Below, in pieces: positions 12,481-46,115 of a DNA stretch of 64,000 nucleotides. The first letter of the stretch is position 1. Each line of letters opens with the position of its first letter. The notes below the pieces were generated by a model. The model did not search any database, was not told where the DNA came from, and worked only from the letters and a program-made list of their open reading frames with translations. The stretch covers positions 1 to 64,000 of the forward strand of contig NZ_JARZHF010000010.1 of assembly GCF_029891575.1 (NCBI RefSeq). The letters run 5' to 3'. Position numbers and translations under genes: made by a program. The DNA is from Salipaludibacillus daqingensis (lineage in GTDB: Bacteria > Bacillota > Bacilli > Bacillales > Salisediminibacteriaceae).

Positions 12481-12488
12481 AGAAATAA

Positions 12489-13865: not shown

Positions 13866-13918
13866 TTTCAGTGTACAAGGATTATGATTTTCACAAAAAC
13901 TAAAGGAGTGTTTATTTT

Positions 13919-27026: not shown

Positions 27027-28358
27027 TCACTTTACTTTTACTATTGTAGGTTCAATTATATCCTTTCTTCGGTAAACGTTCAGGACGAGACCTAAAATGG
27101 CAGCGTAAAAAAGTAGCATACTTCCTCCATAACTAATAAATGGCAGGGAGACTCCCATGATCGGAACGATGCCTAAGCCCATGAGGATGTTCCAGAAGGC
27201 AGGAACGGCAATGAATGTTGCCCCGCCGATGACTAATAACCTCCCATATAAGTCCTTTGTTTTAAAAGCATTGGATGAAATTCGTAAAACAAACAGTAAT
27301 AGGATGAGGCAAAGGAAAATTCCGAATACCCAGCCAAGGGAATACACGAGATAAGGAAAAGCAAAATCAGTATGGGCTTCAGGAAGGGAATGGATAGACA
27401 AATCATTGAAGATCCCATTACCAAACCACCCTGCTTGTGACAGGACATCCTTGACTAAAATGTATATATATCCGTCTCCATTCGGGTCAGCAGTTGGATT
27501 AATAAAAGCCGCTAATCGATGAAAAAAATAACCACCGCGAGAGAAGCTGATCATGGCAAAGGTGAATAGGATACTAGCCGTTACCGTTGCATTGGCAATC
27601 ACTACCTTCATAGCTAATTTCTTACTGACATGTGAAAAAGTAAAGATCGTCATGATACTAAAAAAGTAAATGATCGTTAATGAAAAGTGAGGAAGCATGA
27701 AATAGAGAAATATCGGCGTCCAAAATAAGAAACATAATAAACATTGTTTTGACCAACTATTGAATGTATTAATCTTGGTGAGAAGACCAGTCCAAGCGAT
27801 AAAAAGAAAAAATAAAGAAAAAACCGTTGCATCGAAACTAAAATCCCCAAAAGATACAAATCTTTTTGCTCCATTCATTTCTCTTCCAAATAATAACGTA
27901 CATAGAAGTAAGGAAATACCTATGCCGTAGAAAGGGAGCCAAAAATTCTTCCATCTTCGATAATCAAAGAAAAGGAGTCCTAAAATGACTAGAATAGCTA
28001 GGGTGTACCAGATTGCCTGGCGACTAATAAAATAGGCGCTAGATAGTGATAATTCAGGAACTCCATTAATCAGTGGTAGGAAACTAATACTAGCAATTGT
28101 TAAAAATAGGGCAAGAAGAAGCCAATCGATCTTTGGTTTATGTAGCTGATTTAGTTTTTCTCCAATAGTATAGGGATTACCCATTTCTTGTATGGCCTTT
28201 TCTTCTGCTTCCGCTTTCGAAGACGCTCTTTTCTCGAAAGATTGGCTCAGCTCTTGTAGGTGATGGGTTAGTTCCTTTTTGATCATGCCATGTGCTTCTT
28301 TTGATTTCACTTTAGAGGTAACTTTACTTAAAAACTCCTCAAACCTGGAAGGGCTCAT
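27027..28358 (-). CDS. FtsW/RodA/SpoVE family protein with N-terminal HAAS domain
   Basis: A 443-residue membrane protein. Residues about 1-75 form a soluble alpha-helical HAAS-like domain (EEFLSKVTSKVKSKEAHGMIKKELTHHLQEL, then the AIQEMGNP motif). Residues about 80-435 hold some ten helices with SEDS-family features such as NGAKRFVSFG near 165 and the C-terminal FISYGGSMLL. SEDS proteins are peptidoglycan glycosyltransferases acting with a class B PBP; none is nearby. It overlaps the PadR-like gene by 4 bp and is the last gene of a sigma-PadR-FtsW operon. A dedicated role in an envelope stress response is inference. Confidence 0.88.
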   Translation of the reverse strand: MSPSRFEEFLSKVTSKVKSKEAHGMIKKELTHHLQELSQSFEKRASSKAEAEEKAIQEMGNPYTIGEKLNQLHKPKIDWLLLALFLTIASISFLPLINGVPELSLSSAYFISRQAIWYTLAILVILGLLFFDYRRWKNFWLPFYGIGISLLLCTLLFGREMNGAKRFVSFGDFSFDATVFSLFFLFIAWTGLLTKINTFNSWSKQCLLCFLFWTPIFLYFMLPHFSLTIIYFFSIMTIFTFSHVSKKLAMKVVIANATVTASILFTFAMISFSRGGYFFHRLAAFINPTADPNGDGYIYILVKDVLSQAGWFGNGIFNDLSIHSLPEAHTDFAFPYLVYSLGWVFGIFLCLILLLFVLRISSNAFKTKDLYGRLLVIGGATFIAVPAFWNILMGLGIVPIMGVSLPFISYGGSMLLFYAAILGLVLNVYRRKDIIEPTIVKVK

Positions 28359-28789
28359 GTAGACGCCTCCTCTAGTAAATGTTTTAGAGAAAATCGTTGT
28401 TTAGAGCTTACTTCCTTAGAAGCGGTTAAGTATTTTTTCCCTTTTGCAGCTAACGAATAATATTTTTTTTCATAGATCCAAGTCGAAGTGACAATCCCTT
28501 TCATTTCCATTGAGTGTAATAGTGTATATAGCAGCCCTTCCTTGTTTTGAAAACTAAGCTCATTTTTTTGAATGAGTAAAATTGATAGATCATATCCGTG
28601 CTTTGCTTCATGTTGAAGCGATTCCAATACAGCTACAAGGGTTTCCTCTTTCCAAGAATGAAGCTGTTGTTTAGATTGTCTTTCTCGAATCGCTTCTTTC
28701 ACGGCATTTTTTCGTTCATCAGAAAACAATAAGTTTTTAAAAACGGTTTTTTTCATGGAACTCTTCAGGTTATGGAATGGGTCTTTCAT
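28355..28789 (-). CDS. PadR-like transcriptional regulator
   Basis: A 144-residue protein. Residues about 48-130 match a PadR-type winged helix (LVAVLESLQHEAKHGYDLSILL ... YTLLHSMEMKGIVTS ... KKYYSLAAKGKKYL). The N-terminal 45 residues are basic and helical and are not part of the usual PadR fold. It lies between the sigma factor gene (3 bp gap) and the FtsW-like gene (4 bp overlap), so the three are one operon. PadR and HAAS domains commonly travel together. Whether it binds DNA or acts on the sigma factor is unknown. Confidence 0.8.
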   Translation of the reverse strand: MKDPFHNLKSSMKKTVFKNLLFSDERKNAVKEAIRERQSKQQLHSWKEETLVAVLESLQHEAKHGYDLSILLIQKNELSFQNKEGLLYTLLHSMEMKGIVTSTWIYEKKYYSLAAKGKKYLTASKEVSSKQRFSLKHLLEEAST

Positions 28790-28792
28790 CGG

Positions 28793-29341
28793 TTAAACCT
28801 CCTCTATCATCTTATTCTTTAATAACTCTTTTGCACGCTTTAATCTCGTTTTTATCGTATTGATATTTACGGTAGTAATCTTGCTTATTTCTACTAATGT
28901 TAGCTCCTCATAATAATGGAGAAAAACGATTTCTCTGTACTTAATTGGCAATCCCATAACAGCGTTAGACAAGCTGTGTTTCTCACTTTTCGCAATAATC
29001 TCCTCCTCAACGTGCTTTGATTTGGAGGGGATATAGTCTAAAATCTTCTCGTTAAGGGTCACTTTGCGATAATGCCAGCTTTTTAAATAGTCCTTGCAAT
29101 GATTACTGGCAATGCGATATAACCAAGTTTTTATTGATGCTTGTTGATTAAACTGCGCTAATTTTTCATAACACTTAATAAAGATCTCTTGCGTTAAATC
29201 CTCAGCTGTTGCTCGGTTCCTTACATATGTAAAGGCGAGGTGAAGGATGCGATCGCTATATTCGTTCATTAATTGATCTATGATCTGTTCCCTATCCGCA
29301 ATAATTTCGTCCGCCACCGGCCATTGCTCTAATTCATGCAT
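28793..29341 (-). CDS. ECF-type RNA polymerase sigma factor
   Basis: A 182-residue sigma-70 family protein with only regions 2 and 4. Region 2 lies near residues 22-90, with the core-binding stretch LAFTYVRNRATAEDLTQEIFIKCYEKL and the -10-reading KTWLYRIASNHCKDYL. Region 4 lies near 125-175, with YREIVFLHYYEELTLVEISKITTVNINTIKTRLKRAKELL. The start follows GAAGAGGTGATACATTC. No classic anti-sigma gene lies next to it; its operon partners are a PadR-like protein and a HAAS-FtsW protein. It probably drives its own promoter. Confidence 0.93.
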   Translation of the reverse strand: MHELEQWPVADEIIADREQIIDQLMNEYSDRILHLAFTYVRNRATAEDLTQEIFIKCYEKLAQFNQQASIKTWLYRIASNHCKDYLKSWHYRKVTLNEKILDYIPSKSKHVEEEIIAKSEKHSLSNAVMGLPIKYREIVFLHYYEELTLVEISKITTVNINTIKTRLKRAKELLKNKMIEEV

Positions 29342-29711: not shown

Positions 29712-29919
29712 ATGAAAGTTTCTTTAATTGCTGCGATGGATAAAAGAGGCAATGCAACAAGTCATAGATATGCTCAAAAAGAATGATGACTGTCATTATG
29801 TTGGCCTTTCAACAGAGCCAGACAATTATCCGGCACTTCGATTCTATGAATCACTTGGATTCGTAAACACAGGGGAGTTGTTAGAGGAAAGTGAAGTTAT
29901 TTTACTATTAAAAGTATAG
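29712..29919 (+). pseudogene. Chimeric remnant: DHFR-like start joined to a GNAT C-terminus
   Basis: From the ATG at 29712 the frame reads MKVSLIAAMDKRG, like the first residues of dihydrofolate reductase, then loses all similarity and stops near 29786. In another frame, from 29728 to the stop at 29919, the translation reads like the last 50 residues of a GNAT acetyltransferase (AMQQVIDML ... ALRFYESLGFVNTGELLEE). There is no ribosome binding site and neither domain is complete. It looks like a deletion junction between two decayed genes. Confidence 0.55.
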
Positions 29920-30249: not shown

Positions 30250-30381
30250 CTATTTTTCATAAGGTAGATCAAGTTTAATGTCATTATATGATTCTACTGA
30301 AGAGGCATCAGTGACTGCTACGACGGAAGATGACGTCACAAGTAAAGACACAATTAACCATTTGAGTATTGCTTTTTTCAT
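30250..30381 (-). CDS. PapR-like secreted signalling peptide precursor (43 residues)
   Basis: An unlisted small gene encoding a 43-residue peptide with a positively charged start (MKKAILKWL), a hydrophobic core (LIVSLLV), a possible signal-peptidase region (VVAVTDA), and a C-terminal tail ending LDLPYEK. PapR, the pheromone precursor of the PlcR system in the B. cereus group, has the same layout and ends in a DLPFEF-type tail. A perfect AAGGAG site lies 7 nt before the ATG at 30381. It is transcribed away from a PlcR-like receptor gene that starts 229 bp off. The coding call rests on the ribosome binding site, the signal-peptide pattern and the tail motif; the pairing is inference. Confidence 0.72.
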   Translation of the reverse strand: MKKAILKWLIVSLLVTSSSVVAVTDASSVESYNDIKLDLPYEK

Positions 30382-30397
30382 TTTTATCTCTCCTTTT

Positions 30398-30433
30398 ATA
30401 AATGAAATATAACCATTCTACCATTCCATTTAT
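30398..30433. promoter_or_regulatory. Inverted repeat upstream of the PapR-like gene
   Basis: ATAAATG (30398-30404) and CATTTAT (30427-30433) form a 7-bp inverted pair lying where the promoter of the small peptide should be. Two palindromic GATATATC sites also lie in the same divergent gap, at 30483-30490 and 30538-30545. Any of these could be bound by the neighbouring HTH regulator. They do not match the B. cereus PlcR box exactly. Confidence 0.3.
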
Positions 30434-30609
30434 GTGATTTTTTGGTGGAACAGGTTGTACTTTCAGACTAATACATTTTGATGATATATCCAACTGAAGA
30501 ATAAGCGGGGTTGGAACTGTTATTAACGGATGACAACGATATATCTGAAATTTCCGACAGTTATTACAAATAACATGCGTTTAGTTATAACTTACAAGGA
30601 GGATGAAAG

Positions 30610-31530
30610 ATGATAAGAGAAATTGGCGTTGAAATTAAAGCGATCAGGAAGAAAAAGGGGCTGACTCAGGGTTTCATAGCGGAGGGATTTTGTTCCCAGG
30701 CCACTATCAGTAAGATTGAAAAGGGGACACATGTTCCGAACCTGGAAACACTTAAGCATATATGCGACAGGCTGAACGTACCGGTTGAGCATTTTATTTC
30801 GAGGACAACATATGACAATGTGGCCTACATAGAGGAAGTTATGAATCAAATAGAAGAAGCCGCGGCGGAGCAGGATTACAAGACGGTCTATGATATTACC
30901 AAATATGAGCTGCGAGGCAATACACAAAAAAAGAGCTGGTATGAAATTGCGTTAGTATGGAACTACATTTTTTCCTCTTACCGAATTGGAAAATGGCAAG
31001 CGGAGGAGACCATCCTTGAGTTAAAGAAACTGCTAACAAAAGTTAAATCTGCCTCAGGGAAAATGGAAGACCTTTATTCTCGGATTTTAAACTCAATTGC
31101 GATAATTTACGGTGAATTAAACATCTTTGATTTAAGTATTAAGTATTTTGAGAAGGCGCTGGAAAATATTCAGAACCGCAGAATCGCTCATCCATCACGC
31201 TATGAACATATTTTTCATATTCGCGTCTGGTACAACCTGTCTAAAAGTTACTATGATAATGGAGATTATGAGAAATCACTGAAACATATCCACTATGCCA
31301 TTTCAATCTGTAGAAAACATGAGAGTGTATCGCAGCTTGGGCAGCTCCTGTATTACAAAGGGCAGTGTCTGGAGAAGCAGGGAGCTTCTTACCAAGAGAT
31401 TCAACTCTGCTATCAACAAGCTCTTATTATTTTTAATTTCCTGGAGAAAAAGTCTTACGGCGATACGATCCGCAAATTGAAAACCTATTACGTTCCTAAT
31501 GAAGCAGACTATGACATTGAGAAATACTGA
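30610..31530 (+). CDS. PlcR-like transcriptional regulator (HTH_XRE plus TPR)
   Basis: A 306-residue regulator of the RRNPP (Rap/Rgg/NprR/PlcR/PrgX) group. Residues 1-66 are a Cro/CI-type helix-turn-helix (IKAIRKKKGLTQGFIAEGFCSQATISKIEKG). Residues about 80-295 are helical tetratricopeptide-like repeats that in PlcR bind the PapR peptide. The C-terminal AISICRKHESVSQLGQLLYYKGQCLEK segment closely follows the same part of B. cereus PlcR. The start follows ACAAGGAGGATGAAAG. The neighbouring divergent small gene encodes a PapR-like peptide. It lies beside the lantibiotic cluster, which has no LanR/LanK of its own, so it may control lantibiotic production; that is inference. Confidence 0.88.
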   Translation: MIREIGVEIKAIRKKKGLTQGFIAEGFCSQATISKIEKGTHVPNLETLKHICDRLNVPVEHFISRTTYDNVAYIEEVMNQIEEAAAEQDYKTVYDITKYELRGNTQKKSWYEIALVWNYIFSSYRIGKWQAEETILELKKLLTKVKSASGKMEDLYSRILNSIAIIYGELNIFDLSIKYFEKALENIQNRRIAHPSRYEHIFHIRVWYNLSKSYYDNGDYEKSLKHIHYAISICRKHESVSQLGQLLYYKGQCLEKQGASYQEIQLCYQQALIIFNFLEKKSYGDTIRKLKTYYVPNEADYDIEKY

Positions 31531-31612: not shown

Positions 31613-31840
31613 TTAATCGTTACTAGTTTCGTAATCAAACAGGTCTTCAATGGAACAGCCGAAAGCGAGTGCCAGTTCAAATCCTAAAGCTAAAGATGGT
31701 GTATATTTATTTTTTTCGATCGAGATGATCGTCTGCCGGCTGACACCGACTTTTTTCCCTAGATCCGCTTGTGTCATTTTAAATTTTGACCGCCACATTT
31801 GAATGTGATTGTCCAGTTTACCCGATGTATTTTTTCCCAT
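31613..31840 (-). CDS. Small XRE-family regulator
   Basis: A 75-residue DNA-binding protein that is almost wholly one Cro/CI helix-turn-helix (MTQADLGKKVGVSRQTIISIEKNKYTPSLALGFELALAFGCSIEDLF). The ATG at 31840 is chosen because GGGGGG lies 7 nt upstream; an ATG five codons earlier has no site. It is the last gene of the lantibiotic immunity operon, 26 bp after the last permease. In Firmicutes such short regulators often pair with a small DUF2178-like membrane protein; one lies at the head of this operon behind a palindromic promoter that this protein could bind. Confidence 0.85.
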   Translation of the reverse strand: MGKNTSGKLDNHIQMWRSKFKMTQADLGKKVGVSRQTIISIEKNKYTPSLALGFELALAFGCSIEDLFDYETSND

Positions 31841-31866
31841 GCAGGTTCCCCCCATTCATGATGAAC

Positions 31867-32610
31867 TTATACCCATTCGCGTTGCTGGAAATGCACGCTT
31901 CCGACTGCCGTAAATAAAGCAAAGCTAGTGATCATGACCACGTAAAACGTCACTGCTGAGTCCAAAAATCCCGCATCTCCTCCTAATGAGTAGGAGAGGG
32001 CTTGGGTCATGCCTAACAATGGATGAGCCCACGGGTACATGGGGCCGAACAGAGGAGAATTGGCGATGACCACTGCTGGAAACGTCAGCATCACATTGAC
32101 TACACTCGGTCCTGCGAACGACTTAAGCATGGTGGCCAGCCACAGCTGCAGAGCAATCAAAGGCAAACAGGCAAGCCAGCCCACTCCGGCACTCACGAAC
32201 ACATTCACAAATGGAAACGGGTCCGAGAAGCCTTTTAATGTCCCAGCGACCCACGTAGCGGTGATAAATGCGGTCTGGGTTAACGTCAGAAGAAACAGGA
32301 TGACGATAAATTTAGCAAAATAGATCTGCAGCCTTGAAACAGGAAGCGTTAACACCTGTTTCCAGCCGCCCCCTGAATGCTCATGGCGGCAAATAAGTGC
32401 CGCAAAGACACCCGTTAGAAGCGGTAGGAAAATAGCACTGTGTGCGAGAATCATCGTCGTGATCGTCCCGAGCCACTGGTGTTCGGGCACGTGCATCGTT
32501 GTAAACAAGCCGATAACCGTCGCCAGCACAGGACTTGCCAGGACGATAAAAACAACTTTGGAATGTTTTAGCTTTAACCATTCAGATTTCAAAACGTTTG
32601 AAAACATCAT
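31867..32610 (-). CDS. Lantibiotic immunity ABC transporter permease (LanG-type), set 2
   Basis: A 247-residue six-helix ABC-2 type permease beginning MMFSNVLKSEWLKLKHSKVVF, the usual start of the LanE/LanG/MutE/MutG families (a short cytosolic helix, then helix 1). The frame is open 45 codons upstream, but the ATG at 32610 overlaps the TGA of the preceding permease by 4 bp and has AAAGGATG upstream, so I use it. With the second permease and the ATPase it forms one LanFEG exporter, which expels lantibiotic from the membrane to protect the producer. Confidence 0.86.
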   Translation of the reverse strand: MMFSNVLKSEWLKLKHSKVVFIVLASPVLATVIGLFTTMHVPEHQWLGTITTMILAHSAIFLPLLTGVFAALICRHEHSGGGWKQVLTLPVSRLQIYFAKFIVILFLLTLTQTAFITATWVAGTLKGFSDPFPFVNVFVSAGVGWLACLPLIALQLWLATMLKSFAGPSVVNVMLTFPAVVIANSPLFGPMYPWAHPLLGMTQALSYSLGGDAGFLDSAVTFYVVMITSFALFTAVGSVHFQQREWV

Positions 32611-33317
32611 GCGGCCACATCCTTTCGTGTTAAATGAATGAGAGTGATCACCATCAGGGCTGCACCTGTTCCGAGCCCGTAGAAGATGTCCGGCGCACCT
32701 GACGTAATACCATCCATAAGAAGTGGCCAGCGCCACGGCAGCCATGTCGGCAAGTCAACAGCATACATAATGAACACGGCGTTCGCAATCCCTGTCGTTA
32801 AAGCAACGCCCTGATTTGTAAACCCCATCGACAGCCAGAACTGTAGAAATACAAACGGCAGTACAGCTATATATGTGTATAGGCTCATCTGTGAGGCGGC
32901 CATGAGAGGCAAATCGCTGCCGAATCCAAGTGCGAGGCCGAGTATCAGTGAAAAGATGACAAAAAGGACTGATGACCCGATGAGTACCGTTAATATAATC
33001 GCCAATTTCGAGAGATAGATTTTCCCGTTGTTAACCGGCAGTGAAAACAGCGTCGTCCACGTATGTGTCTCATGTTCAACACTCGCAAACAGTGAAACGA
33101 TTAGCGTGAGTGTTAACACGAGTACCGTCGGCCAAAAAATATGGACATTTTCAAGCAGGAAGTACCAGTAATCATCATGCAATCCCAGCAGATGATCAAG
33201 CCGTAGCGAATAATTCACTGCCTGCAATCCGATGAGCCCTGCGGGAAAGGCGACCATCATCAGCCATACCATCTTTTTCACTTTCATGAGATCGGACTGG
33301 ATAAGCGCTCTCATCAT
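32607..33317 (-). CDS. Lantibiotic immunity ABC transporter permease (LanE-type), set 2
   Basis: A 236-residue six-helix permease (MMRALIQSDLMKVKKMVWLMM start; GLQAVNYSLRLDHLLGLHDDYWYFLLENVHIFWPTV extracytoplasmic loop after helix 1). It overlaps both neighbours by ATGA. The WSxxFxLPV-like segment WTTLFSLPVNNGKIYLSKL near residue 92 is the cytosolic coupling region common to LanE/G proteins. Second gene of the second immunity set. Confidence 0.86.
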   Translation of the reverse strand: MMRALIQSDLMKVKKMVWLMMVAFPAGLIGLQAVNYSLRLDHLLGLHDDYWYFLLENVHIFWPTVLVLTLTLIVSLFASVEHETHTWTTLFSLPVNNGKIYLSKLAIILTVLIGSSVLFVIFSLILGLALGFGSDLPLMAASQMSLYTYIAVLPFVFLQFWLSMGFTNQGVALTTGIANAVFIMYAVDLPTWLPWRWPLLMDGITSGAPDIFYGLGTGAALMVITLIHLTRKDVAA

Positions 33318-34234
33318 AGTGTTTCCTCACCTTTCGTAAGGTTGAGGAAAATGTCTTCGAGCGAAGCTATCTCCTCAGAAACCCTGTAAATGTTAAGGCC
33401 GGAATACACTAATTCTTTTACGATTTCGGCAATCTTTCCGTCCGGCTGATTCGGCATCGTCAACCAGTTGTCGTGACGGGCTGTCTCGATGCCATGGCTG
33501 GAAAGGACTTTCTGCCCCGTCTCCCAGTCATCCATTTGAACGTGCAGTTTCCGGCTCGCTTTTTCACGGAGGACTTCAATCCGGTCCTGGAAAATCATTT
33601 CCCCTTTTGCGATGATGCCTACTTTTGTGGCAACCTGGTCTATTTCTGTAAGTAAATGGCTTGATAGAAGGACGGTCATCCCGTATTTAGCGGGCAGTTG
33701 CCTGATCAGTTCCCGTATCTCGATCATACCCGCTGGATCAAGCCCGTTTGTCGGTTCGTCCAGTATGAGCAGTTTCGGCCTTCCGAGTAATGAGGCTGCC
33801 AGCCCCAGCCGTTGTTTCATGCCTAATGAATACTCTTTCACTTTCCGGTCAGCCATTTTTGTCAGCCTGACCATCTCGAGTACTTCCGTTATTCGCGACT
33901 TCGGCACCTGCAGGATTTTACGGAGTGTTTCCAAGTTATCTTTACCTGTCAGATGTGGGTAGTAAGAGGGGGATTCAACGAGGGAACCGATCTGCTTAAG
34001 AATGGCGATTCTTTCTTTCGTTAAGTCCTTTCCAAAGACGGTCACATTCCCTTTTGCTGGTTTGATGAGACCTAACAGCATCCGAATCGTCGTCGTTTTC
34101 CCTGCCCCGTTAGGACCGAGGAATCCGTAAATTTCCCCTTCTTCAAGCTGGAGAGAGAGCCCGTTGACGACCTTTGTTCCTTTATACGTTTTCGTTAAAT
34201 CATTTGTCTCGAGAAGATACGTTTGATTACCCAT
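33314..34234 (-). CDS. Lantibiotic immunity ABC transporter ATP-binding protein (LanF-type), set 2
   Basis: A 306-residue ABC ATPase of the LanF/BcrA group: Walker A GPNGAGKTTT near residue 39, signature YSLGMKQRLGLA near 139, Walker B LLILDEPTNGLDP near 159, and a C-terminal accessory region of about 80 residues. It energises the two permeases encoded directly downstream. The ATG at 34234 lies inside the end of the previous permease gene (8 bp overlap), with AGGAGTGCCGGCC as ribosome binding site. One of two paralogous ATPases in this cluster. Confidence 0.92.
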   Translation of the reverse strand: MGNQTYLLETNDLTKTYKGTKVVNGLSLQLEEGEIYGFLGPNGAGKTTTIRMLLGLIKPAKGNVTVFGKDLTKERIAILKQIGSLVESPSYYPHLTGKDNLETLRKILQVPKSRITEVLEMVRLTKMADRKVKEYSLGMKQRLGLAASLLGRPKLLILDEPTNGLDPAGMIEIRELIRQLPAKYGMTVLLSSHLLTEIDQVATKVGIIAKGEMIFQDRIEVLREKASRKLHVQMDDWETGQKVLSSHGIETARHDNWLTMPNQPDGKIAEIVKELVYSGLNIYRVSEEIASLEDIFLNLTKGEETL

Positions 34235-34988
34235 TGGCCGGCACTCCTTGTTTGATTAGTCTGATACTCAAATAACTTAAACCAAGCGACAGAAGCAGAC
34301 AGACACTTATAAATGTGAGGAGCTGGATCCCCCCTGAAGTCGCTGCTGTCATCCCTAAAATCGGTAATGCCCACGGATACAAATATGGCAGTAATGAACC
34401 CGATTCATTTGAGAAGATGAGAAAAACCGGGATTGACATCAGAATATTTAATGAAAGTGCACTAGACGTGTTGAATCGTAGGTACAGATAGAACTGCAGG
34501 GTTCCAGCTGCCGACGCCCCGAACGTGCCTAATAGGAAGGCAGGTATAAATAGGGTAAGGACAGGTAGCTGATCCTGGATACCTGCAATGTACCCTCCCG
34601 CGATAATGAGTGAAAACGTCCACAGTTGAGTCAGGCAGGCGAGTGTGGCAATCCAGGCCCACTTGCTTAAAAACACATGGGTCGCGGTAATGGGGGAGAG
34701 CGAAATTTTTTCCCAGTTTCCTGCCTCTTTTTCAAACCCGTGCAGTGCGCGAGCCACGATTGCGACTGCGACTGGAAGACAGATCGTTCCATAAAATAAG
34801 AACACCATAACGGTATACATATACCAGTGATTTTCCGTGTCGTACCCGTACTGGTTAACCATGATAATCGAATAAATGACATACCCGTAAATGACGGGCA
34901 AAAGTGTTAATAAGATGATAACCAGCCACATTTTCGACCGCCGTAATTTACAACGTTCGATTGCCAGCATACGAATCCAGTCTTTCAT
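34227..34988 (-). CDS. Lantibiotic immunity ABC transporter permease, set 1 (second permease)
   Basis: A 253-residue six-helix ABC-2 permease (MKDWIRMLAIERCKLRRSKMW start; WEKISLSPITATHVFLSKWAW coupling segment near residue 93). RBS TATAAGGAGGGCCT. Belongs with the permease at 34998-35699 and the ATPase at 35696-36622. The two immunity sets are head to tail without a gap. Confidence 0.85.
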   Translation of the reverse strand: MKDWIRMLAIERCKLRRSKMWLVIILLTLLPVIYGYVIYSIIMVNQYGYDTENHWYMYTVMVFLFYGTICLPVAVAIVARALHGFEKEAGNWEKISLSPITATHVFLSKWAWIATLACLTQLWTFSLIIAGGYIAGIQDQLPVLTLFIPAFLLGTFGASAAGTLQFYLYLRFNTSSALSLNILMSIPVFLIFSNESGSLLPYLYPWALPILGMTAATSGGIQLLTFISVCLLLSLGLSYLSIRLIKQGVPANG

Positions 34989-34997
34989 AGGCCCTCC

Positions 34998-35699
34998 TTA
35001 TAGACGAATTTTGACGTACATGGTCGAAACAGTAAAATAAAAAACCGATGTTACGGCCAGAGCGAGAGCCGCTGAAATAAGTTCCTGCGGCGACGGTTGG
35101 AGCATGGTACCAAACGTAGCTAGCGGCCCCCACGGAAGCCAGAGGCCCCACCCGGCAAAAATTTGAATAAAGATAAATAGGGCTATGCCTGTAAGGGTGG
35201 GAATCAGCATATTTTCGCAGGCCGTGACGGTCCAGAGCAGAAAGACCATTAAAGGGAAGGAGAGCAGCACCGGACCGGCCGTTATGAGGAAAAGTCCCGT
35301 CGTATCTGTTACTCCGGCTGCGAGGCTTGTCGTAAACGCCGCAGAGAAAATGGTAATTCCGGCTCCTAACAAGACTGCAAACGTCGTTATTAATTTGGCA
35401 GTCAAGATGGCATTTTTTCTGATCGGAAATAATTGCAGGCGGCTCCACATACCGTTTTCATACTCGTATGCCATCAACATCATCACAGCTGCCGTCGTCA
35501 CAAGAATCGTGAGAGGTGGCATGGCCATCTGAGCTGTTTCTAGAAAGATGCTCCAGCTCCTTTCCGGAGAATATTGCCTGCTTAAAGAAGCCAGCGCCGC
35601 ATAACTAGTGACGGAGATGGTGATCCAGACAGCCACATACAACCAGAGAAGATAGGTGACAGGCACTTTTCTGAACTCGATTTTCAGAAGGGTGATCAT
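34998..35699 (-). CDS. Lantibiotic immunity ABC transporter permease, set 1 (first permease)
   Basis: A 233-residue six-helix permease (MITLLKIEFRKVPVTYLLW start; WSRLQLFPIRKNAILTAKLI coupling segment near residue 84). Its ATG overlaps the TGA of the ATPase gene (ATGA), so the two are translationally coupled. Function as for the other LanE/G-type permeases: removal of lantibiotic from the producer membrane. Specificity for the alpha or beta peptide cannot be told from sequence. Confidence 0.86.
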   Translation of the reverse strand: MITLLKIEFRKVPVTYLLWLYVAVWITISVTSYAALASLSRQYSPERSWSIFLETAQMAMPPLTILVTTAAVMMLMAYEYENGMWSRLQLFPIRKNAILTAKLITTFAVLLGAGITIFSAAFTTSLAAGVTDTTGLFLITAGPVLLSFPLMVFLLWTVTACENMLIPTLTGIALFIFIQIFAGWGLWLPWGPLATFGTMLQPSPQELISAALALAVTSVFYFTVSTMYVKIRL

Positions 35700-36622
35700 G
35701 AGACAGATGCCTCATTGTTCATCAGTGATAAGTAGGCTTCTTCCAATGAGTCGACAGAATCTTTCCCTGTCTCATTAAGGATATGAATGCCCTTATCTTT
35801 AAGCGCCTTTTTCACAGCCTGAAGGCGGGAAGGGGTACCCGTCACAAACAGTGTGTTGTCATCGTCCCACTGAATTACGACGCCTTCTTTTCTAATTAAG
35901 TCAGCTGCAGCAATCTGATCGTCCGTCACAATCCCTATGACACATTCGGTTTTTCCAATCAGTCCAGGAACAGTTCCTTGATAACATAAGCGTCCCTCAC
36001 TGATTACGCCAATTTCATCAGCCAGCTGTCCGATTTCACTGAGCAGATGGCTCGAGATAATAATCGTCGTTCCGTATTTTGTGCACCAATCCTTGAGCAA
36101 GGTTCTAATTTTGTGAATCCAGACAGGATCAAGTCCGTTTGTCGGTTCGTCGTAAATTAACAGTTCCGGTTGATGAAGTAACGTATATGCAATGCCGAGA
36201 CGCTGCGCCATGCCGAGTGAGAACGTTTTAACCTTTTTTCCGGCCGCTTCTTCGAGACCGACCGCTTTCAGCGCTCTGTCGACAGCGGCAGTGTCTGCGA
36301 CGTGATAGAGGCGCCTCGCGATGTCAAGATTTTCTCTTGCAGTCAAATGCTCATAATGCGCAGGCTTTTCAATTAAAGCACCTGTCTTGGCAAGCACATC
36401 GAGGCGACTTTCAGGCATTGGCTTCCCTTGCACGAACACCTTTCCGGCATCTGCCTTTAACAGTCCGGTGATCAGTCTCAGTGTCGTCGTCTTTCCCGCG
36501 CCGTTCGGTCCGAGAAAGCCGTATATCTTTCCTTGAGGTACTTTCAGGTTCAAATCCTTAACGGCTGCAATACCGCTGTATTTTTTCGTCAGCTGAACCG
36601 TTTCCACTGCTAATTCACCCAT
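35696..36622 (-). CDS. Lantibiotic immunity ABC transporter ATP-binding protein (LanF-type), set 1
   Basis: A 308-residue ABC ATPase: Walker A GPNGAGKTTT near residue 38, signature FSLGMAQRLGIAY near 138, Walker B LLIYDEPTNGLDP near 158. A C-terminal extension from about 215 follows, as in the BcrA group. RBS GAGGAGGTAATCAGT. First gene of the first of two consecutive ATPase-permease-permease sets, just after the small membrane protein gene and probably driven from the palindromic promoter at 36981-37019. Confidence 0.92.
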   Translation of the reverse strand: MGELAVETVQLTKKYSGIAAVKDLNLKVPQGKIYGFLGPNGAGKTTTLRLITGLLKADAGKVFVQGKPMPESRLDVLAKTGALIEKPAHYEHLTARENLDIARRLYHVADTAAVDRALKAVGLEEAAGKKVKTFSLGMAQRLGIAYTLLHQPELLIYDEPTNGLDPVWIHKIRTLLKDWCTKYGTTIIISSHLLSEIGQLADEIGVISEGRLCYQGTVPGLIGKTECVIGIVTDDQIAAADLIRKEGVVIQWDDDNTLFVTGTPSRLQAVKKALKDKGIHILNETGKDSVDSLEEAYLSLMNNEASVS

Positions 36623-36638
36623 ACTGATTACCTCCTCA

Positions 36639-36935
36639 CTAATTTCTAAATTGAAGAATTAACAAATAGACAGTTCCAATTAAAAAGGTCATAGCAAACA
36701 TCACCAGCGTCAGATTCTGATACCCTGCGCTCGTTAATGTCTCATCAACGCTGAACATAACTGCTGCCACAATCATTCCGCCCAGTAGAAAGAACATCAC
36801 GGAGAATGTTCGGGAAGATATCGTTTTAGCTCGTTCGTCTGAACCCATTCTCTTATTAATGATCAGCATGACCACAAGGCATAGTAGCATGACAACGCCG
36901 CCAATATAATTTCCCCAGTGCACCAGAGTTTCCAT
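36639..36935 (-). CDS. Small membrane protein, DUF2178-like
   Basis: A 98-residue protein with three predicted helices (about 9-27, 44-62 and 75-94). A conserved-looking NKRMGSDERAKTISSR stretch follows helix 1, with the DER motif seen in DUF2178-type proteins that accompany short XRE regulators. A TTG start one codon earlier is also possible; the ribosome binding site AAGGAG is 11 nt from the TTG and 14 nt from the ATG. It heads the immunity operon, 16 bp before the first LanF gene. Possible roles: accessory immunity protein or membrane partner of the small XRE regulator. Function unknown. Confidence 0.7.
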   Translation of the reverse strand: METLVHWGNYIGGVVMLLCLVVMLIINKRMGSDERAKTISSRTFSVMFFLLGGMIVAAVMFSVDETLTSAGYQNLTLVMFAMTFLIGTVYLLILQFRN

Positions 36936-36980
36936 CAATTTAAACCCAACTCCTTTTTGTATTTAACTTTATATGGTAAA

Positions 36981-37019
36981 TGTAAAACAAACTTAACTAA
37001 ATGTCAAGTTTGTTTTACA
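36981..37019 (-). promoter_or_regulatory. Palindromic operator overlapping a promoter
   Basis: TGTAAAACAAACTT (36981-36994) is matched by its perfect inverse AAGTTTGTTTTACA (37006-37019) with an 11-bp spacer. Read on the minus strand, TTGACA lies at the start of the spacer, followed by 17 bp and TACATT, so the arms cover the region around the -35 and the -10. This is the layout of a repressor site controlling the immunity operon. The small XRE protein encoded at the end of that operon is the obvious candidate. Between here and the lanT stop at 37187 I see no gene. Confidence 0.75.
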
Positions 37020-37186
37020 AATTTAATAATATTTTTTGAAAGTAATTTTGCTGCAGAAACCGTTTAGCAGGCATCCACTGGTTTCCACAGCAAACTTAGC
37101 TGAGAGTCCCCCGGAGAAAATAGACTCCTTGAGTAAGGAAAGTGTCCGCCTTTAAAGAGCTTCGAGGAAACAGCTTATCTAAGCAA

Positions 37187-39337
37187 TCAACTTAGATTTT
37201 TATAAAAATGACTGTAGAATCCGCCGGTATGAAGCAAGTCTTTGTGCGTGCCGTATTCCATGATTTTTCCTTTATCAACCACGCAGATCATATCACTGTT
37301 CATAACGGTTGTAAGCCGGTGTGCAATCACGATGCGCGTACAATTGATCGATGATAAATAGTCATCGATCTTTTTCTCGTTAACGTGATCTAGCGAACTC
37401 GTCGCTTCGTCAAGAACAAGGATGGAAGGCTTACTTAAAAGGGCTTTAGCGAGCGCAATGCGCTGGCGCTGGCCGCCGGACAGATTCATGCCCATCTCTG
37501 AGACCATCGTATTGTACTGCATCGGCATTGCCATAATTTCATCATGAATCTGCGACACCTTGGCGGCTTCGACCACTTCTTCAGGAGTCGCGTCAGGATG
37601 ATGCAGCGTGATATTCTCGTAGATAGACCGGTTAAAGAGGGTCACATCTTGAGGGACCGTGCCAATTCGTCTGCGAAGTTGCTGAAGGTCAATGTCTTCA
37701 AGATCCTTGCCATCATAATAAATTGTCCCTGATACGGGTTTGAAAATGCCGATAATTAGATTGGCAATGGTTGTTTTTCCGGAACCTGACTGACCTACAA
37801 GCGCCACTTTCTGACCTTCGGAAATCGTCATCGAAAGGTCGTCGACGACACGCTCACTGTACTTGGAGAAAGAGAATGAGACGTTTTCGAGACGGATATT
37901 CCCCCTGACTGGCTCATAATCCGGTTCTTCTTCCATGCTCCCCAATTCGGCAGGAGCTTCGAGCACATCCTCGACCCGCTTCAGGTAGGAAGTTGTCAGA
38001 ATAAACGCCTGGACCATGTTTACAACCGAGCCACTCAAGTTGAAAAACTGGCCTGATATAGCATGAAAAGCAATCAGAACACCAAGCGTAATCTGACCCG
38101 AAAATACTTGATAGGCACCTATCCAGAGAATGATAAGCGGTGCTAACAGCTGCAGGGAACTACTGGCAGTGTTAACGTAATTTAGAATCGTTTCTTTTTT
38201 TCGGTACGAAGACAGCAAGCTATTAAACCTCTCTAGCCAGCGCCGGTACATCATATGTTCAACGCCGGACGTCTTGACGCCGAAGATGCCGTAAAGCATT
38301 TCAGTCTGGGTGCCTTGAACTTTCGCGTGATTAAGAATTTCTTGCTGGTTCGTTTCGGATATATACCGTTTGCTTAACGAAATGAGCGCGATATTAAGGG
38401 CGGCGATCACCAAGACGAACACGGTCATTAACCATGATTGATAAGCCATGTATAGCAGGATAACCACCAGAACAGCTGTATCGAGTATGCCTTTTACGAC
38501 CTGGGTCGTCAGCTGATCGCGAATGACTTTCATGCTGTTTGCACGGAAGATCAAGTCGCCGAATGAGCGGAGCAGAAAAAATTGATACGGAAGCTTCAGG
38601 ATATGAGAGAAAAACTTCGTCTGCATGTCATAATCAATCGCGTTATGGAACGTAATCAACGTGCGTCCTCTTATATACGTAAACAGCATATGAAACAGAA
38701 CAACACCGAGAATGCCGATTAAAAACACATGCAAAATGCTCACTTCCATCGGAACGATGATATGGTCAACAACGAATTGGATCAGCATTGGCATCCCTAC
38801 GGTGAAGAGCTGCAGGAGAAGGGTCAGCATGAGGATGGTCCCGAACAGCTTTGGTCTGTTCGTAATAAAAGGGACAAACGACCACCATACATTTTTTTCT
38901 TTCTTGTATTCAAACCGGTCCCCCGGATAGAGAGTGAGGATATAACCGGTGAATTTCTTGTCAAAATCGTCCCGTGTTAGTTTCCTTCTGCCACCACCAG
39001 GATCGACGATATGGAATTCGCGGTCTTTCTTTATTTTTTCCAGTACGACGAAGTGATCTTCCCCCCAGAAGATAATTGCCGGGAGCTTCATCTGCTTTAA
39101 CTGTTCCGTTTCCGCTTTATACGGTTTCGTTTCAAAGCCCAGTTGTTCGGCAAGCTTTTTCAGGTGGAAGAGTGTCGTTCCATCTCTCCCGTTTCCCATT
39201 CGCTCTCTCAGTTCGTAGAGAGAAACGTGGCTTTTATAATAACCCATCATCATCGCCATGCAGCAGAGACCGCACTCGGTTTGCTGCATTTGTTCAATAC
39301 ACGGGACGCGTTTCCTTGTCGGTTTAGTGTCGCTCAT
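37187..39337 (-). CDS. lanT: Peptidase-containing lantibiotic ABC transporter
   Basis: A 716-residue bacteriocin-processing exporter. It cleaves leader peptides after a double-glycine-type site and exports the modified peptides. An N-terminal C39 peptidase domain (about 10-140) has Cys22 in QQTECGLCCM, His in GEDHFVVLEK near 96 and Asp in IVDPGGGR near 112. A membrane domain (about 160-440) follows, then an ATPase with Walker A LVGQSGSGKTT near 515, signature NLSGGQRQRIALAK near 615 and Walker B ILVLDEATSSLD near 637. The start overlaps the end of lanM2. A single transporter must serve both precursor peptides. Confidence 0.95.
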   Translation of the reverse strand: MSDTKPTRKRVPCIEQMQQTECGLCCMAMMMGYYKSHVSLYELRERMGNGRDGTTLFHLKKLAEQLGFETKPYKAETEQLKQMKLPAIIFWGEDHFVVLEKIKKDREFHIVDPGGGRRKLTRDDFDKKFTGYILTLYPGDRFEYKKEKNVWWSFVPFITNRPKLFGTILMLTLLLQLFTVGMPMLIQFVVDHIIVPMEVSILHVFLIGILGVVLFHMLFTYIRGRTLITFHNAIDYDMQTKFFSHILKLPYQFFLLRSFGDLIFRANSMKVIRDQLTTQVVKGILDTAVLVVILLYMAYQSWLMTVFVLVIAALNIALISLSKRYISETNQQEILNHAKVQGTQTEMLYGIFGVKTSGVEHMMYRRWLERFNSLLSSYRKKETILNYVNTASSSLQLLAPLIILWIGAYQVFSGQITLGVLIAFHAISGQFFNLSGSVVNMVQAFILTTSYLKRVEDVLEAPAELGSMEEEPDYEPVRGNIRLENVSFSFSKYSERVVDDLSMTISEGQKVALVGQSGSGKTTIANLIIGIFKPVSGTIYYDGKDLEDIDLQQLRRRIGTVPQDVTLFNRSIYENITLHHPDATPEEVVEAAKVSQIHDEIMAMPMQYNTMVSEMGMNLSGGQRQRIALAKALLSKPSILVLDEATSSLDHVNEKKIDDYLSSINCTRIVIAHRLTTVMNSDMICVVDKGKIMEYGTHKDLLHTGGFYSHFYKNLS

Positions 39338-42300
39338 ATGGACTCACTCTTTTTCTTTTTTGATCAGGTTCAGGAAATTCCAGTGAAAGAACAGAGGGAA
39401 TCCAAGGGGCAGCGAGCCGCATCAGACCATAGCCGATTCCGGTCTGTCCAAGCATGAAGCCGTCCATTTCCGCATAGCGGTGAAGTCCGGAACGCCACCC
39501 TCTGCTTTCTTTCTCAGCGAGGACATCATGGCCCATTCTCAACGCTTTCACATACCATCTGTCTTCAGAAAGTTGTTTAGCAGCACTCAGCATAATATCA
39601 ATATTGCCAAGCGTCCCATGACACAGACAGTGGCTCGAAAGGAGCCCTTCTTCTGAGACAGCGGCGAGAAGCTTCTCCATTCGCTCTTCCGTCCCCGGTG
39701 TGCGCTCATTTCTCATAACTGTGGCGAGAGCAATACCGGGGGCGCCGTGGCACCAGAAGCATCTGCTTCCTCCATCATGCTTCGCGCCTCCATAAGACGC
39801 TGGCAGTGTGCCTTCTTGGATAGTTCCTGCTTCAAAAGTCATAAGCTTAGTAAGCGCACGTGCCACTGTAAGATCATCTGTTACGACGGCCGATTTTGAC
39901 AATGCCCATAAATAGCCGGCCGTCCCATGGGCAAGCCCGGGTCCAGGGTTTTCAAAAGTTAGTGTCATGCGTTCGATTTTCTCTGCGAGCAGTATCGATG
40001 CTCTAACGGCTGTCTCTTTGAACTTATTTCTGCCTGTTTTCTCAAATGCGTTCAGACAGCAGACGACTAAGCCTGACAGACCTGAAACAAAATCAGGTTC
40101 ATGATCCTCGAAGGAAAGGACCTGGTCGACAGTCTCAAGATGGTCTTCAGCACGGTTGATCAGTTCGGGATCGTCCCATAATAACCCGAGATGAACGAGT
40201 GTGTAGACGGGAGCGCCTTCTCCAGAAAAGACCGATATTGTCGGCAATTTAGGCCTCTCCTTTAATTTCCCCGCTATAAAGTAGGCGATCTTCTCACTTA
40301 ATAAGCGGTAGTGTGAGTCGCTGGATAACTTACTGAGATAGGCGAAGAACAGGCTGTAGCCTGCCAAACCGTCGTAGATGTCATTGCCTTTGATTCCTAC
40401 ATCCAGGCCTTTTTCACCGCTTAAATTTAACCCGATCCAGTTGACTTCCTCACGCTCCGTCTCTGCAATCGCACGTTGTGCGATGATAGATCCGATTTTC
40501 AGCGCTTCGCTAAGAAACAAGCTAGGATCAGAAGGTCTGTCCAGCTGTTTTTTTTCAATAAAGGGTCGGGCCTGGTTGTGTTCCCAAGCATTTTCGATCA
40601 GGGTGGCTAACGACCACCTGACATATTGCGATTGTTTTTCCATGTCCGCTGGACTGAGTCTGTCGAGCTTGTCATACACATCGCCATAACTAGTGCGGTC
40701 AAAAAACTCGCCAATACAGTTACCGTTACCGTCATAGATGTCCCGTCCGTCAACATAATAGTAAAAATAGGGGACGTCGTGTGTTAACATCTGTTGCGTT
40801 TCAGAGGAAGTGAACAGCTGGAATTTATCTGACTGAGTCGTCATCTGCCATAAATAATCAAATAACCTCACCCGTTCGAGACCATTCTGCAAGTAGTCAG
40901 GATGGAGGCTGTTAGCAAGAAATTCACTGTATACCTGGGTCGGACGGAATACCTGTCGGATCTTCGTACCTTTGAAAAAAGACAGTGGGCCTTCAGGAGA
41001 CTTAAATTCTGCTGCATTCTCATAAATAATTTTATAAAGGTCTTTGAAACCTTGTTCAATGTCATTTGCATAGTCAATGGGGTTCATCGTTTCTTCTTTC
41101 ATTTTTACCCTGTTTTTGTAATCCGGTGATTTGACGATTTCAGATACGAGCCGCATCTGGTCCGTTCCTGCATCTGCTACCGTTAAAGCTGTCAGTTTTT
41201 TTGATTCCTGGCCGGCCTTTGCTCCGATCGCGCTGACATCAAAATCAATTGCTGCCTCACTAAGTAACGGCGAAGTGATCATCAATGACGAGTAAACAGA
41301 GCGGTTCATTTCGAGCAAAAGTTCGTTTTTACTGCTCAGGTGGCCTGTCATCTCAAGGTTTTTGCTGAACAGAGTTTCCAAATCAACTGGAATCGGGTAT
41401 TCTCCGTTCGCAATCATATTTTCCGCATGGAAATCAGAGGAGCCTAGAACATAAAATAGCGCCGTAAAACCGCCTTGGCGATAATAAAACCGTTTAACTT
41501 CCTCTTTCGTCGTACACTCTTTGTAGGGGACGTGTTCCTGCCAACCGTAGTCACCGCCCTCAATCACCTTTACAGCAGCTAACGGATGTTTGAACCCTTT
41601 CCTGTTAAGCCATCCGACAAGCCGGCTGAACTGAGCATCCACTTTTAGTGAGCGCGGTTTGTAGACGAGTTTCGCACCGGAAGTAAATTGGAGCATAATT
41701 ACTTCCCGGCCGTCCTGGTGGGTATCTCCTAGGCCGAACGATAACGCGGATAAACAACTCAACTCTTCAGCGAATCCGGATTGCAGCTCGATGTAATCTG
41801 TATTAAATCGATCAATCAGTTCTTTCAGCAGCCGGATGTAGCGTTCGGTCGTTTCCGTCACCAACCTTCCGAGAACAGGGTATAGGCTGAAAAATTGAAC
41901 CACTTCGTATGGATCTTGCTGGAACTTTTTCATGAAACTCTGAAAGCGGGCGTTCGCCGTTTCCCCTTCTAGCTGTCCTGTCAGTCTGGCAATGTTAATT
42001 TCCAAGACAACTGATTTAATGCACAGATTATGTAATTTTTGATAGAGTGTGTCTATTATTCCAATCATTAAAGCTTCCGTATCTATCTTATCCGGAGGTA
42101 CATGTGTGAGCTTACGCGAAAGCGTCTCTTCTGCATAGGATATAAATGAAGACAATAATGCCTGGGTTGTATTCAGATCACATTCTTTCGTTGAATGATA
42201 TGAAAGGACATTGTTGAAGTCGTTGATCCATTCCAGTTCTTTTTCCAATGCAGGCTGATTCGGTTCTTGAAGTCTGCTTTTAAAACTTTCCATCGACAGC

Positions 42301-42461
42301 CCTTGATTAATGAGGCGTTGCTCAAGCATTGGCTCTGATACAGTATTCAGCCATTTATCGAGCTCCGTCGTTTTTGTTGATGTGTCTATAGCTGGCCGAC
42401 CTTCAACCCTTTCAAGTAAATAAGCTGACTGGCTGAACGAATTCATGAGATCACTTTTCAC
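39324..42461 (-). CDS. lanM2: Class II lanthipeptide synthetase LanM (partner of the beta peptide)
   Basis: A 1045-residue bifunctional enzyme. The N-terminal dehydratase domain phosphorylates and eliminates Ser/Thr in the core peptide; the C-terminal LanC-like domain forms the thioether rings. Seen: SFGLGDTHQDGREV then LVYKPRSLKVD near 275, SSDFHAENMIA near 350, and the cyclase zinc ligands in CFWCHGAPGIAL near residue 900 and LCHGTLGNIDI near 948. GTG start at 42461, 8 nt after AGGAGG. Because it follows lanA2 directly, it probably modifies the beta peptide. It differs greatly from the other LanM here. Confidence 0.94.
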   Translation of the reverse strand: MKSDLMNSFSQSAYLLERVEGRPAIDTSTKTTELDKWLNTVSEPMLEQRLINQGLSMESFKSRLQEPNQPALEKELEWINDFNNVLSYHSTKECDLNTTQALLSSFISYAEETLSRKLTHVPPDKIDTEALMIGIIDTLYQKLHNLCIKSVVLEINIARLTGQLEGETANARFQSFMKKFQQDPYEVVQFFSLYPVLGRLVTETTERYIRLLKELIDRFNTDYIELQSGFAEELSCLSALSFGLGDTHQDGREVIMLQFTSGAKLVYKPRSLKVDAQFSRLVGWLNRKGFKHPLAAVKVIEGGDYGWQEHVPYKECTTKEEVKRFYYRQGGFTALFYVLGSSDFHAENMIANGEYPIPVDLETLFSKNLEMTGHLSSKNELLLEMNRSVYSSLMITSPLLSEAAIDFDVSAIGAKAGQESKKLTALTVADAGTDQMRLVSEIVKSPDYKNRVKMKEETMNPIDYANDIEQGFKDLYKIIYENAAEFKSPEGPLSFFKGTKIRQVFRPTQVYSEFLANSLHPDYLQNGLERVRLFDYLWQMTTQSDKFQLFTSSETQQMLTHDVPYFYYYVDGRDIYDGNGNCIGEFFDRTSYGDVYDKLDRLSPADMEKQSQYVRWSLATLIENAWEHNQARPFIEKKQLDRPSDPSLFLSEALKIGSIIAQRAIAETEREEVNWIGLNLSGEKGLDVGIKGNDIYDGLAGYSLFFAYLSKLSSDSHYRLLSEKIAYFIAGKLKERPKLPTISVFSGEGAPVYTLVHLGLLWDDPELINRAEDHLETVDQVLSFEDHEPDFVSGLSGLVVCCLNAFEKTGRNKFKETAVRASILLAEKIERMTLTFENPGPGLAHGTAGYLWALSKSAVVTDDLTVARALTKLMTFEAGTIQEGTLPASYGGAKHDGGSRCFWCHGAPGIALATVMRNERTPGTEERMEKLLAAVSEEGLLSSHCLCHGTLGNIDIMLSAAKQLSEDRWYVKALRMGHDVLAEKESRGWRSGLHRYAEMDGFMLGQTGIGYGLMRLAAPWIPSVLSLEFPEPDQKRKRVSPYERH

Positions 42462-42524
42462 CGGTAAAACCTCCTTTAATTAATTTGCGGTGGCGGTCGT
42501 GCTGAGCTGAATCATTGAAATAAT

Positions 42525-42549
42525 GGTGGCAAGCGTGACACTTGCCACC
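42525..42549 (-). terminator. Hairpin between lanA2 and lanM2
   Basis: GGTGGCAAG (42525-42533) pairs perfectly with CTTGCCACC (42541-42549) around a 7-nt loop, in the 180-bp gap after lanA2 in the direction of transcription. No strong T-run follows, so it is likelier to be a partial attenuator or an mRNA-stabilising 3' end for the precursor gene than a full stop. Confidence 0.65.
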
Positions 42550-42643
42550 AACTTCCTCTTTTTTCAAAAAATTTGTTACAATTAAGTACAATTGCGTTGA
42601 GGTTTCTGTCTGCAGGAGCGAGCTTCCAAACTACCCTGCAACT

Positions 42644-42862
42644 TTAACCTCTGCATGATGATGTACACGCCGTTGTCGGGCATGCCACTGCAGTAATTAG
42701 TGTGACTGTTGCACAAGCCCAAGTCGTTTGCGGCTGGACATCCTGGGCACCTGCGATACTTTTCAGCTGAGCCTCGTCCACTTCACCGGCAGGGTGCTCC
42801 AGTCCTAGTTGGCTGCGCGTTTCCGGATTGCGGTATGCTGCTGCAAGATCTTTTCTCTCCAT
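42644..42862 (-). CDS. lanA2: Lantibiotic beta precursor peptide (haloduracin-beta-like)
   Basis: A 72-residue prepropeptide. The leader includes RNPETRSQLGLEHPAGEV and ends in a GA-type site (Gly38-Ala39) for the LanT peptidase. Residues 40-45 (QDVQPQ) parallel the hexapeptide that is trimmed later in haloduracin beta. The core from Thr46 has TTWACATV at its start and CPTTACTSSC near the end, with Cys at 50, 61, 66 and 70; this is the haloduracin-beta ring pattern. Two extra residues, Arg-Gly, follow the last Cys. RBS AAAGGAGGTGAAGAAAT. It lies between the two lanM genes. Confidence 0.95.
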   Translation of the reverse strand: MERKDLAAAYRNPETRSQLGLEHPAGEVDEAQLKSIAGAQDVQPQTTWACATVTLITAVACPTTACTSSCRG

Positions 42863-42893
42863 ATTTCTTCACCTCCTTTATAGAATATACGCT

Positions 42894-46040: not shown

Positions 46041-46069
46041 GTTAATCACCCCTATGTAGTATAAAGTGA

Positions 46070-46105: not shown

Positions 46106-46115
46106 CAATAAGTCT

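Follow-up and report, generated by a model that had tools for sequence, protein, structure and literature searches.

A Probable PlcR-PapR-Type Receptor-Peptide Pair in Divergent Arrangement beside a Predicted Two-Peptide Lantibiotic Cluster of Salipaludibacillus daqingensis

A Receptor Gene and a Small Peptide Gene Placed Back to Back

The window analyzed here comprises the first 64,000 nucleotides of contig NZ_JARZHF010000010.1 of Salipaludibacillus daqingensis, in which a receptor gene and a small open reading frame (ORF) point away from each other across a short intergenic region.

30250-30381, minus strand: PapR-like propeptide gene, 43 aa, ATG start, tail LDLPYEK up to the stop codon
30382-30609: shared divergent intergenic region, 228 bp, with the short inverted repeat GTTATTACAAATAAC
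30610-31530, plus strand: PlcR-group receptor, 306 aa, N-terminal HTH_3 and C-terminal TPR peptide-binding domain (RNPP_C)

The 43-codon ORF is translated as MKKAILKWLIVSLLVTSSSVVAVTDASSVESYNDIKLDLPYEK and has TTATAAAAGGAGAGATAAAA ahead of it, with the Shine-Dalgarno sequence AAAAGGAG placed 8 bases 5' of the ATG, and a simple hydropathy rule marked its N-terminus as signal-peptide-like, of the Sec type. It lies on the strand opposite to the receptor gene, with the two starts 229 bp apart and 228 bp between them. A sequence-only reading had based its proposal of a pheromone gene on a strong ribosome-binding site, a signal-like start and an LDLPYEK end, opposite a 306-residue HTH-TPR regulator starting 229 bp away, and all of these are present as described. 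Searched against Pfam and NCBIfam, the 43-mer had no match with an E value of 1 or below, and tblastn among the collected loci found a homolog of the peptide only at its own locus. About 330 bp beyond the peptide gene, a short open frame (29728-29919) that by eye resembles the end of an acetyltransferase is probably a gene fragment.

The receptor matched HTH_3 (9e-12) and, over residues 79-294, RNPP_C (PF18768, 4e-38). Its top natural match in the PDB was PlcR (2qfc/3u3w/4fsc; E 9e-34, residues 4-287), slightly outscored by an engineered TPR repeat protein, and identity to PlcR was 31.6% over 275 aligned positions. In an unrooted tree of 62 paired receptors and PlcR, drawn with a midpoint root, omitting NprR, Rap, TprA and others and carrying a warning of long branches, the window receptor fell among 29 rows, PlcR included, that a 100/100 branch separated from the remaining 34. 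Four PlcR residues (Lys87, Lys89, Gln237, and Tyr275) have been reported to contact Glu6 of PapR (PMC6568020); Gln237 and Tyr275 correspond to Q245 and Y283 of the window receptor, and Lys87 and Lys89 to A86 and Q88. None of the 34 other family genomes searched had a match to the window receptor at 1e-60. The host genome also contains eight SBP_bac_5 matches, i.e., oligopeptide-binding proteins of the kind that a permease for peptide re-import would employ.

Divergent Peptide Genes Accompany Most Receptors around the Host

All five PlcR-like receptors of the host genome are accompanied by a divergent signal-peptide ORF, and the five peptides end in LDLPYEK, LDLPHEF, DLPNQHSVPDQG, GDLPPIHM, and APPKYTHG. 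Since these tails differ, the five pairs are probably largely separate channels.

Receptor matches at 1e-12 were found at 54 places in 27 of 35 genomes of the family. Of these places 53 were used, the weakest (in G013) being left out, and one of them was only a remnant, leaving 52 receptors; L033 was excluded for having no receptor ORF. Removal of 15 duplicate receptors (receptors of the Alkalicoccus and Texcoconibacillus records were identical to some from host-family genomes) gave 87 non-duplicate receptors from the family, order-level and class-level samples and a set of named genomes. A blind filter, which combined a Shine-Dalgarno match with a signal-peptide-like start by the simple hydropathy rule, found a divergent ORF starting at most 450 bp upstream of 56 of the 87 receptors, while other placements were rare (one upstream on the same strand, six downstream on the same strand and five convergent, four receptors falling into more than one orientation class). 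When the same filter was applied to 52 other mechanical ORFs (150 aa or longer) at these loci, two had a divergent ORF. Inspection by eye removed two of the 56 divergent ORFs (L056 and L095 were dropped because their upstream ORFs had no PapR-like tail), and a tail search (P-x-E) added four divergent ORFs and one convergent ORF (L058, L059, L061, L065, and L103), so that the final count was 58 of 87. By sample, a divergent ORF accompanied 44 of 52 family receptors, 10 of 15 order-level receptors, 1 of 4 named extras and 3 of 16 class-level receptors. For 23 of the 87 receptors no scan recognized a peptide. A looser scan revealed two further convergent propeptides with tandem repeats (L089 and L101); doubled tails were seen in L013, L014, L089, and L101 (DLPYED x2; GLPLEY x2; TLPDIY x2), of which the last two loci are the convergent ones.

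The divergent pair, which was to be sought in related genomes, thus recurs at 44 of 52 family receptors vs. 2 of 52 controls, and the layout prevails around the host, in the family and order samples, but not across the class. These counts also bear on whether the small ORF could be a chance frame, or a small secreted peptide unrelated to the receptor, as the lack of a family match and of a whole-peptide homolog among the collected loci might suggest. Position, signal-like start and DLPYEx tail agree, however, with those of dozens of pairs, and on position, tail and the control rate of 2/52 we rejected this explanation as highly improbable.

Given that no more than 3 of the 16 receptors in the class sample are divergent, and given the lack of a root in the tree, divergence is not claimed as the ancestral state. 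Orientation required four changes along the tree of paired receptors. Within the PlcR group, the peptide gene of L067 (a locus of the genome that also carries L054) lies downstream on the same strand, and that of L103 is convergent, the identical peptide being convergent also on a plasmid of Planococcus versutus (L149, WP_156108911.1). Six examples were picked from 19 plasmid records with a receptor match. The receptor was accompanied by a divergent ORF with a DLPYE- or DLPFE-type tail on plasmids of Exiguobacterium alkaliphilum and Lysinibacillus fusiformis, in neither case annotated as a gene, and of Alkalihalophilus pseudofirmus OF4, where the ORF is WP_012961261.1, a 'hypothetical protein'; a Sutcliffiella plasmid record had a divergent ORF with another tail, and a Priestia plasmid record had no such ORF beside the receptor. 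Phage records gave no match.

The proposal of a new arrangement was partly borne out. The arrangement departs from the layout described for the B. cereus group (PMC10017872) and from the statement in the Discussion of PMC9765709 that the pheromones of Bacillales, including that of PlcR, are placed immediately downstream, and our literature search, which covered listings and selected text passages, returned no description of a divergent PlcR-PapR layout in Bacillaceae. Gene orientation is charted in figures of PMC10075063 and PMC12700828. On the other hand, the layout is widespread in the family and order of the host, and an opposite-strand arrangement of the PlcR-family pair TprA2/PhrA2 beside lanthionine genes has been published for pneumococcus (PMC5436883). 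The general statement on the position of PlcR pheromones in Bacillales is to be qualified by the divergent layout.

Peptide Tails Follow the Receptor Type

Among 28 peptides of the PlcR group, of which five had been chosen by tail shape so that the count is slightly favored, the tails carried D at position -6 in 25, L at -5 in 25, P at -4 in 26 and E at -2 in 26, and position -3 was Y in 17, H in 5 and F in 4. The tails thus share the motif D-L-P-(Y/H/F)-E-x, flanked by far more variable positions. Over 44 pairs from 25 family genomes, receptor identity correlated with tail similarity (r = 0.735), and when peptides were permuted among the receptors of the same genome, the mean was 0.133, the maximum 0.434 and none of 1000 permutations reached 0.735. 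The covariation of receptor and tail put forward as a check was therefore found, and tails go with the receptor type rather than with the species.

Coevolution at known contact residues, i.e., between Glu6 of the peptide and Gln/Asn at position 237 of the receptor, was considered and rejected, as it mostly reflects one deep split. In the raw data 26 and 26 rows agreed and 5 and 2 disagreed (Fisher 1.4e-9), with a rule for the Glu6-aligned residue that misreads PPxYTHG tails; of the three independent pairs on the tree none went in the same direction, and column 237 ranked 31st of 289 by mutual information. The association is not used as evidence, because the independent pairs give it no support and because of this rank.

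The Pair as a Predicted Quorum-Sensing System

HTH_3 and RNPP_C domains, the PDB match to PlcR, the 100/100 grouping, the tail and the counts of divergent ORFs all bear out a receptor and propeptide of the PlcR-PapR kind, and by their sequences the two genes very probably form a self-contained cytoplasmic quorum-sensing pair of this kind, placed back to back. In the scheme that we infer, the 43-mer would leave the cell through Sec and be processed extracellularly, so that a C-terminal peptide of some seven residues (LDLPYEK) results. An oligopeptide permease would bring this peptide back into the cell, where it would bind in the receptor's TPR groove. Binding would lead to activation and not to relief of repression; the receptor HTH would then act on the shared 228-bp region to raise expression of the peptide gene in a positive feedback, and the peptide-bound receptor would act on further targets too.

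Both promoters and the operator are expected within the 228-bp region, and the inverted repeat was the single feature found in it. The PlcR box TATGnAnnnnTnCATA was absent from it, as the closest match had three mismatches and was equaled by 183 of 200 shuffles, and PlcR boxes were not in excess genome-wide (9 vs. 11 for the reversed pattern). Elsewhere, an exact PlcR box (TATGAAATTTTTCATA) lies between the divergent receptor and peptide genes of locus L063 (0/200 shuffles), and a PlcR-type box with one mismatch between those of locus L002 (2/200 shuffles).

A gene of a subtilisin-type (S8) protease was found within 1.5 kb of 25 of the 87 receptors (L002, L005-L009, L011, L013-L015, L024, L025, L034-L036, L039-L041, L044, L049, L055, L058, L059, L061, and L067). 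In 13 cases it lay upstream and on the other strand (a divergent peptide gene being present at 11 of these loci), in 11 downstream on the receptor strand and in one upstream on the same strand. Two of the seven Peptidase_S8 genes of the host adjoin two of its five receptors, and no protease gene was noticed in the ORF lists around the window pair. The gene of NprB, which reportedly trims PapR in B. cereus, is often linked there to plcR-papR in opposite orientation (PMC10017872). A neighboring S8 protease is possibly the trimming enzyme or a target.

Comparison with Known Systems

Like PlcR-PapR of the Bacillus cereus group, the window pair combines an HTH and RNPP_C receptor, on the same side of the 100/100 split and with Gln237 and Tyr275 retained, with a Sec-type propeptide carrying a C-terminal DLPFE-like tail, here LDLPYEK. 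The reported tails of that group are ADLPFEF for PapR7 (PMC6568020) and, more widely, LPFE(F/Y), VP(F/Y)E(F/Y), MPFEF, and LPFEH (PMC5007282). The window pair differs in that its peptide gene is divergent, whereas papR is described as lying downstream of plcR on the same strand (PMC10017872), and in having neither a PlcR box nor Lys87 and Lys89, at an identity of 31.6%. PlcR of B. thuringiensis, together with its peptide, has been reported to function in Bacillus subtilis 168 (PMC10569065).

By its published description, TprA2/PhrA2 of Streptococcus pneumoniae resembles the window pair in having a PlcR-family regulator, an opposite-strand peptide gene and lanthionine genes nearby (PMC5436883). 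According to the same source, the signal of TprA/PhrA and TprA2/PhrA2 is the C-terminal heptapeptide; the pneumococcal tails are VDLGLAD and LDVGKAD vs. LDLPYEK here, and the lanthionine genes of TprA2/PhrA2 lie beyond the peptide and transporter genes, while here the cluster is on the receptor side and converges on the receptor. The Rgg/SHP systems of groups I and II in streptococci are likewise described with a peptide gene divergent from the receptor (PMC13361665), but by description belong to another receptor subfamily with another kind of peptide. Candidates of RRNPP_detector share the small Sec propeptide adjoining an HTH-TPR receptor, and such candidate pairs were found next to 196 biosynthetic clusters (PMC10075063); a divergent PlcR layout is not described in the consulted text of that paper.

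Outside the B. cereus group there are thus dozens of naturally matched receptor-tail pairs, up to five per cell, which could be used to learn how PlcR-type receptors discriminate between tails such as DLPYEK, DLPYET, DLPYEW, and DLPHEF.

A Predicted Lantibiotic Cluster Adjoins the Receptor Gene

Beyond the receptor gene lies what, by its gene content, is a two-peptide lantibiotic cluster of the lichenicidin/haloduracin type.

31613-31855, minus strand: HTH regulator at the cluster end, 80 aa
31867-36622, minus strand: two ABC transporter sets of the lantibiotic-protection type, ATPases at 33314-34234 and 35696-36622, permeases between
37187-39337, minus strand: LanT, C39 peptidase and ABC exporter, from the family scan
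39324-42461, minus strand: second LanM-type lanthipeptide synthetase, named by similarity to the LanM of other clusters
42644-42862, minus strand: LanA2 prepeptide, LchA2/BrtA2 family (2e-18)
42894-46049, minus strand: first LanM synthetase (TIGR03897, 4e-284)
46116-46328, minus strand: LanA1 prepeptide, lantibiotic alpha / plantaricin C family (2e-21)

In the transporter sets, 33314-34234 matched galliderm_ABC (5e-75) and 31867-32670 matched MutG (1e-14), both under curated cut-offs. The operon presumably starts with the LanA1 gene, at a distance of about 15 kb from the receptor. Of seven other clusters, three (G220, G200, and G191) have a homolog of the HTH gene 31613-31855 within about 0.3-3.7 kb of a LanM gene, and in G024 a fourth, weaker match lies about 17 kb from LanM. 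A comparable HTH gene has been described for lichenicidin/haloduracin (PMC2727956). By its G+C content (0.463 over 31613-46328, compared with 0.375 for the pair and 0.383 for the left flank at 20-30 kb), the cluster looks as if it had been acquired from elsewhere.

Does the Pair Control the Cluster?

The placement of the pair at the cluster edge raises the question of whether it is the density switch of the cluster, traveling with it and activating lanA1-lanM1-lanA2-lanM2-lanT upon build-up of the peptide. A genome of the same genus (G029) bears on this, as it has kept the transporter half of the cluster, with proteins 75-94% identical to those of the window, and carries a decayed receptor remnant (residues 225-303, 71%) at the same cluster edge in the same relative orientation; the remnant locus (L104; G029:C1:2896000-2915000, 7260-14215) contains a truncated LanT and the decayed receptor. 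Within 45 kb around the remnant, LanM1, LanM2, LanA1, and LanA2 had no tblastn match (E 1e-4), so that in this genome, judged from its genes, immunity was apparently kept and production lost, and the receptor has decayed where the biosynthetic genes are gone. Of the genes in the left flank of the window, the surroundings of the remnant gave only weak sigma-factor matches. The linkage of receptor and cluster thus extends to two species, whose settings look different.

This decayed copy is also the only copy seen in a close relative, which could indicate that the window receptor is itself an eavesdropper or a fading remnant and the pair inactive. Both window genes are intact, however, with ribosome-binding sites and conserved motifs, and we find an inactive pair improbable.

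For control of the cluster by the pair there are, besides the cluster edge and G029, a published parallel in TprA/PhrA and its lantibiotic genes (Hoover 2015, cited by PMC10075063 and PMC5436883) and the reported association of most five-TPR receptors with biosynthetic clusters (PMC12700828). Several results argue against it. In seven other LanM1-related clusters, each examined over a stretch of about 20-40 kb that in some cases was ended by the contig, nothing matched the window receptor, and the other four pairs of the host had no LanM or LanA match within stretches of 12-20 kb around them. Similarity between the intergenic region and the lanA1 upstream region was within the range of shuffles (best ungapped score 13 on either strand; shuffle maxima 14 and 13, 30 each). 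Moreover, the operon start is about 15 kb off and the cluster has an HTH gene of its own, the G+C content of the pair differs from that of the cluster, and linkage in two species is few. The earlier proposal that the pair may switch on the lantibiotic operon is thus no more than suggested, given zero of seven related LanM clusters with a receptor match in the stretches examined, no motif above shuffles and no intergenic PlcR box. We regard the density switch as conceivable yet somewhat doubtful, and the cluster as a plausible, if tentative, target of the pair.

Alternatively, the pair could be real with its targets elsewhere (its own operon, scattered genes and perhaps secreted proteins), the cluster having merely inserted beside it. 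The composition of the pair, which is like that of the left flank and unlike that of the cluster, is consistent with this, as are the several related pairs that adjoin genes of subtilisin or other secreted proteins and the related lantibiotic clusters without a receptor match, whereas the receptor remnant of G029, at the same cluster edge in a different setting, argues against it. We consider targets elsewhere a serious possibility, with a chance of being correct that is close to even.

A more comprehensive picture would hold that, in the bacilli around the host, back-to-back genes are the usual layout of the PlcR group, from which the downstream papR of the B. cereus group is a departure, that up to five such pairs operate per cell as separate channels, often coupled to an extracellular subtilisin, and that one of them joined a two-peptide lantibiotic cluster here, traveled together with it from one chromosome to another and activates it according to cell density; in its entirety this picture is unlikely. 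Should the pair control the cluster, a peptide of the LDLPYEK type would be a candidate inducer for this lantibiotic cluster, which may not be expressed under culture conditions.

The sequence-only reading had further stated that the cluster has no LanRK. In agreement with this, the ORF lists by the cluster, which were partly scanned, showed no obvious intact response regulator or kinase, but the cluster does have its own HTH regulator at 31613-31855 on the minus strand. Upstream of lanA1, broken pieces at 47063-47460 resemble by eye the C-terminus of a response regulator and a stretch of a sensor kinase, and are perhaps the relic of a two-component system formerly tied to the cluster. A trio of genes resembling an ECF sigma factor, PadR and FtsW-RodA (27027-29341) also lies beside the lantibiotic cluster, and in G169 a similar trio, with 33-55% identity (L131, 11604-13769), was observed at a distance of about 11 kb from a different LanM gene.
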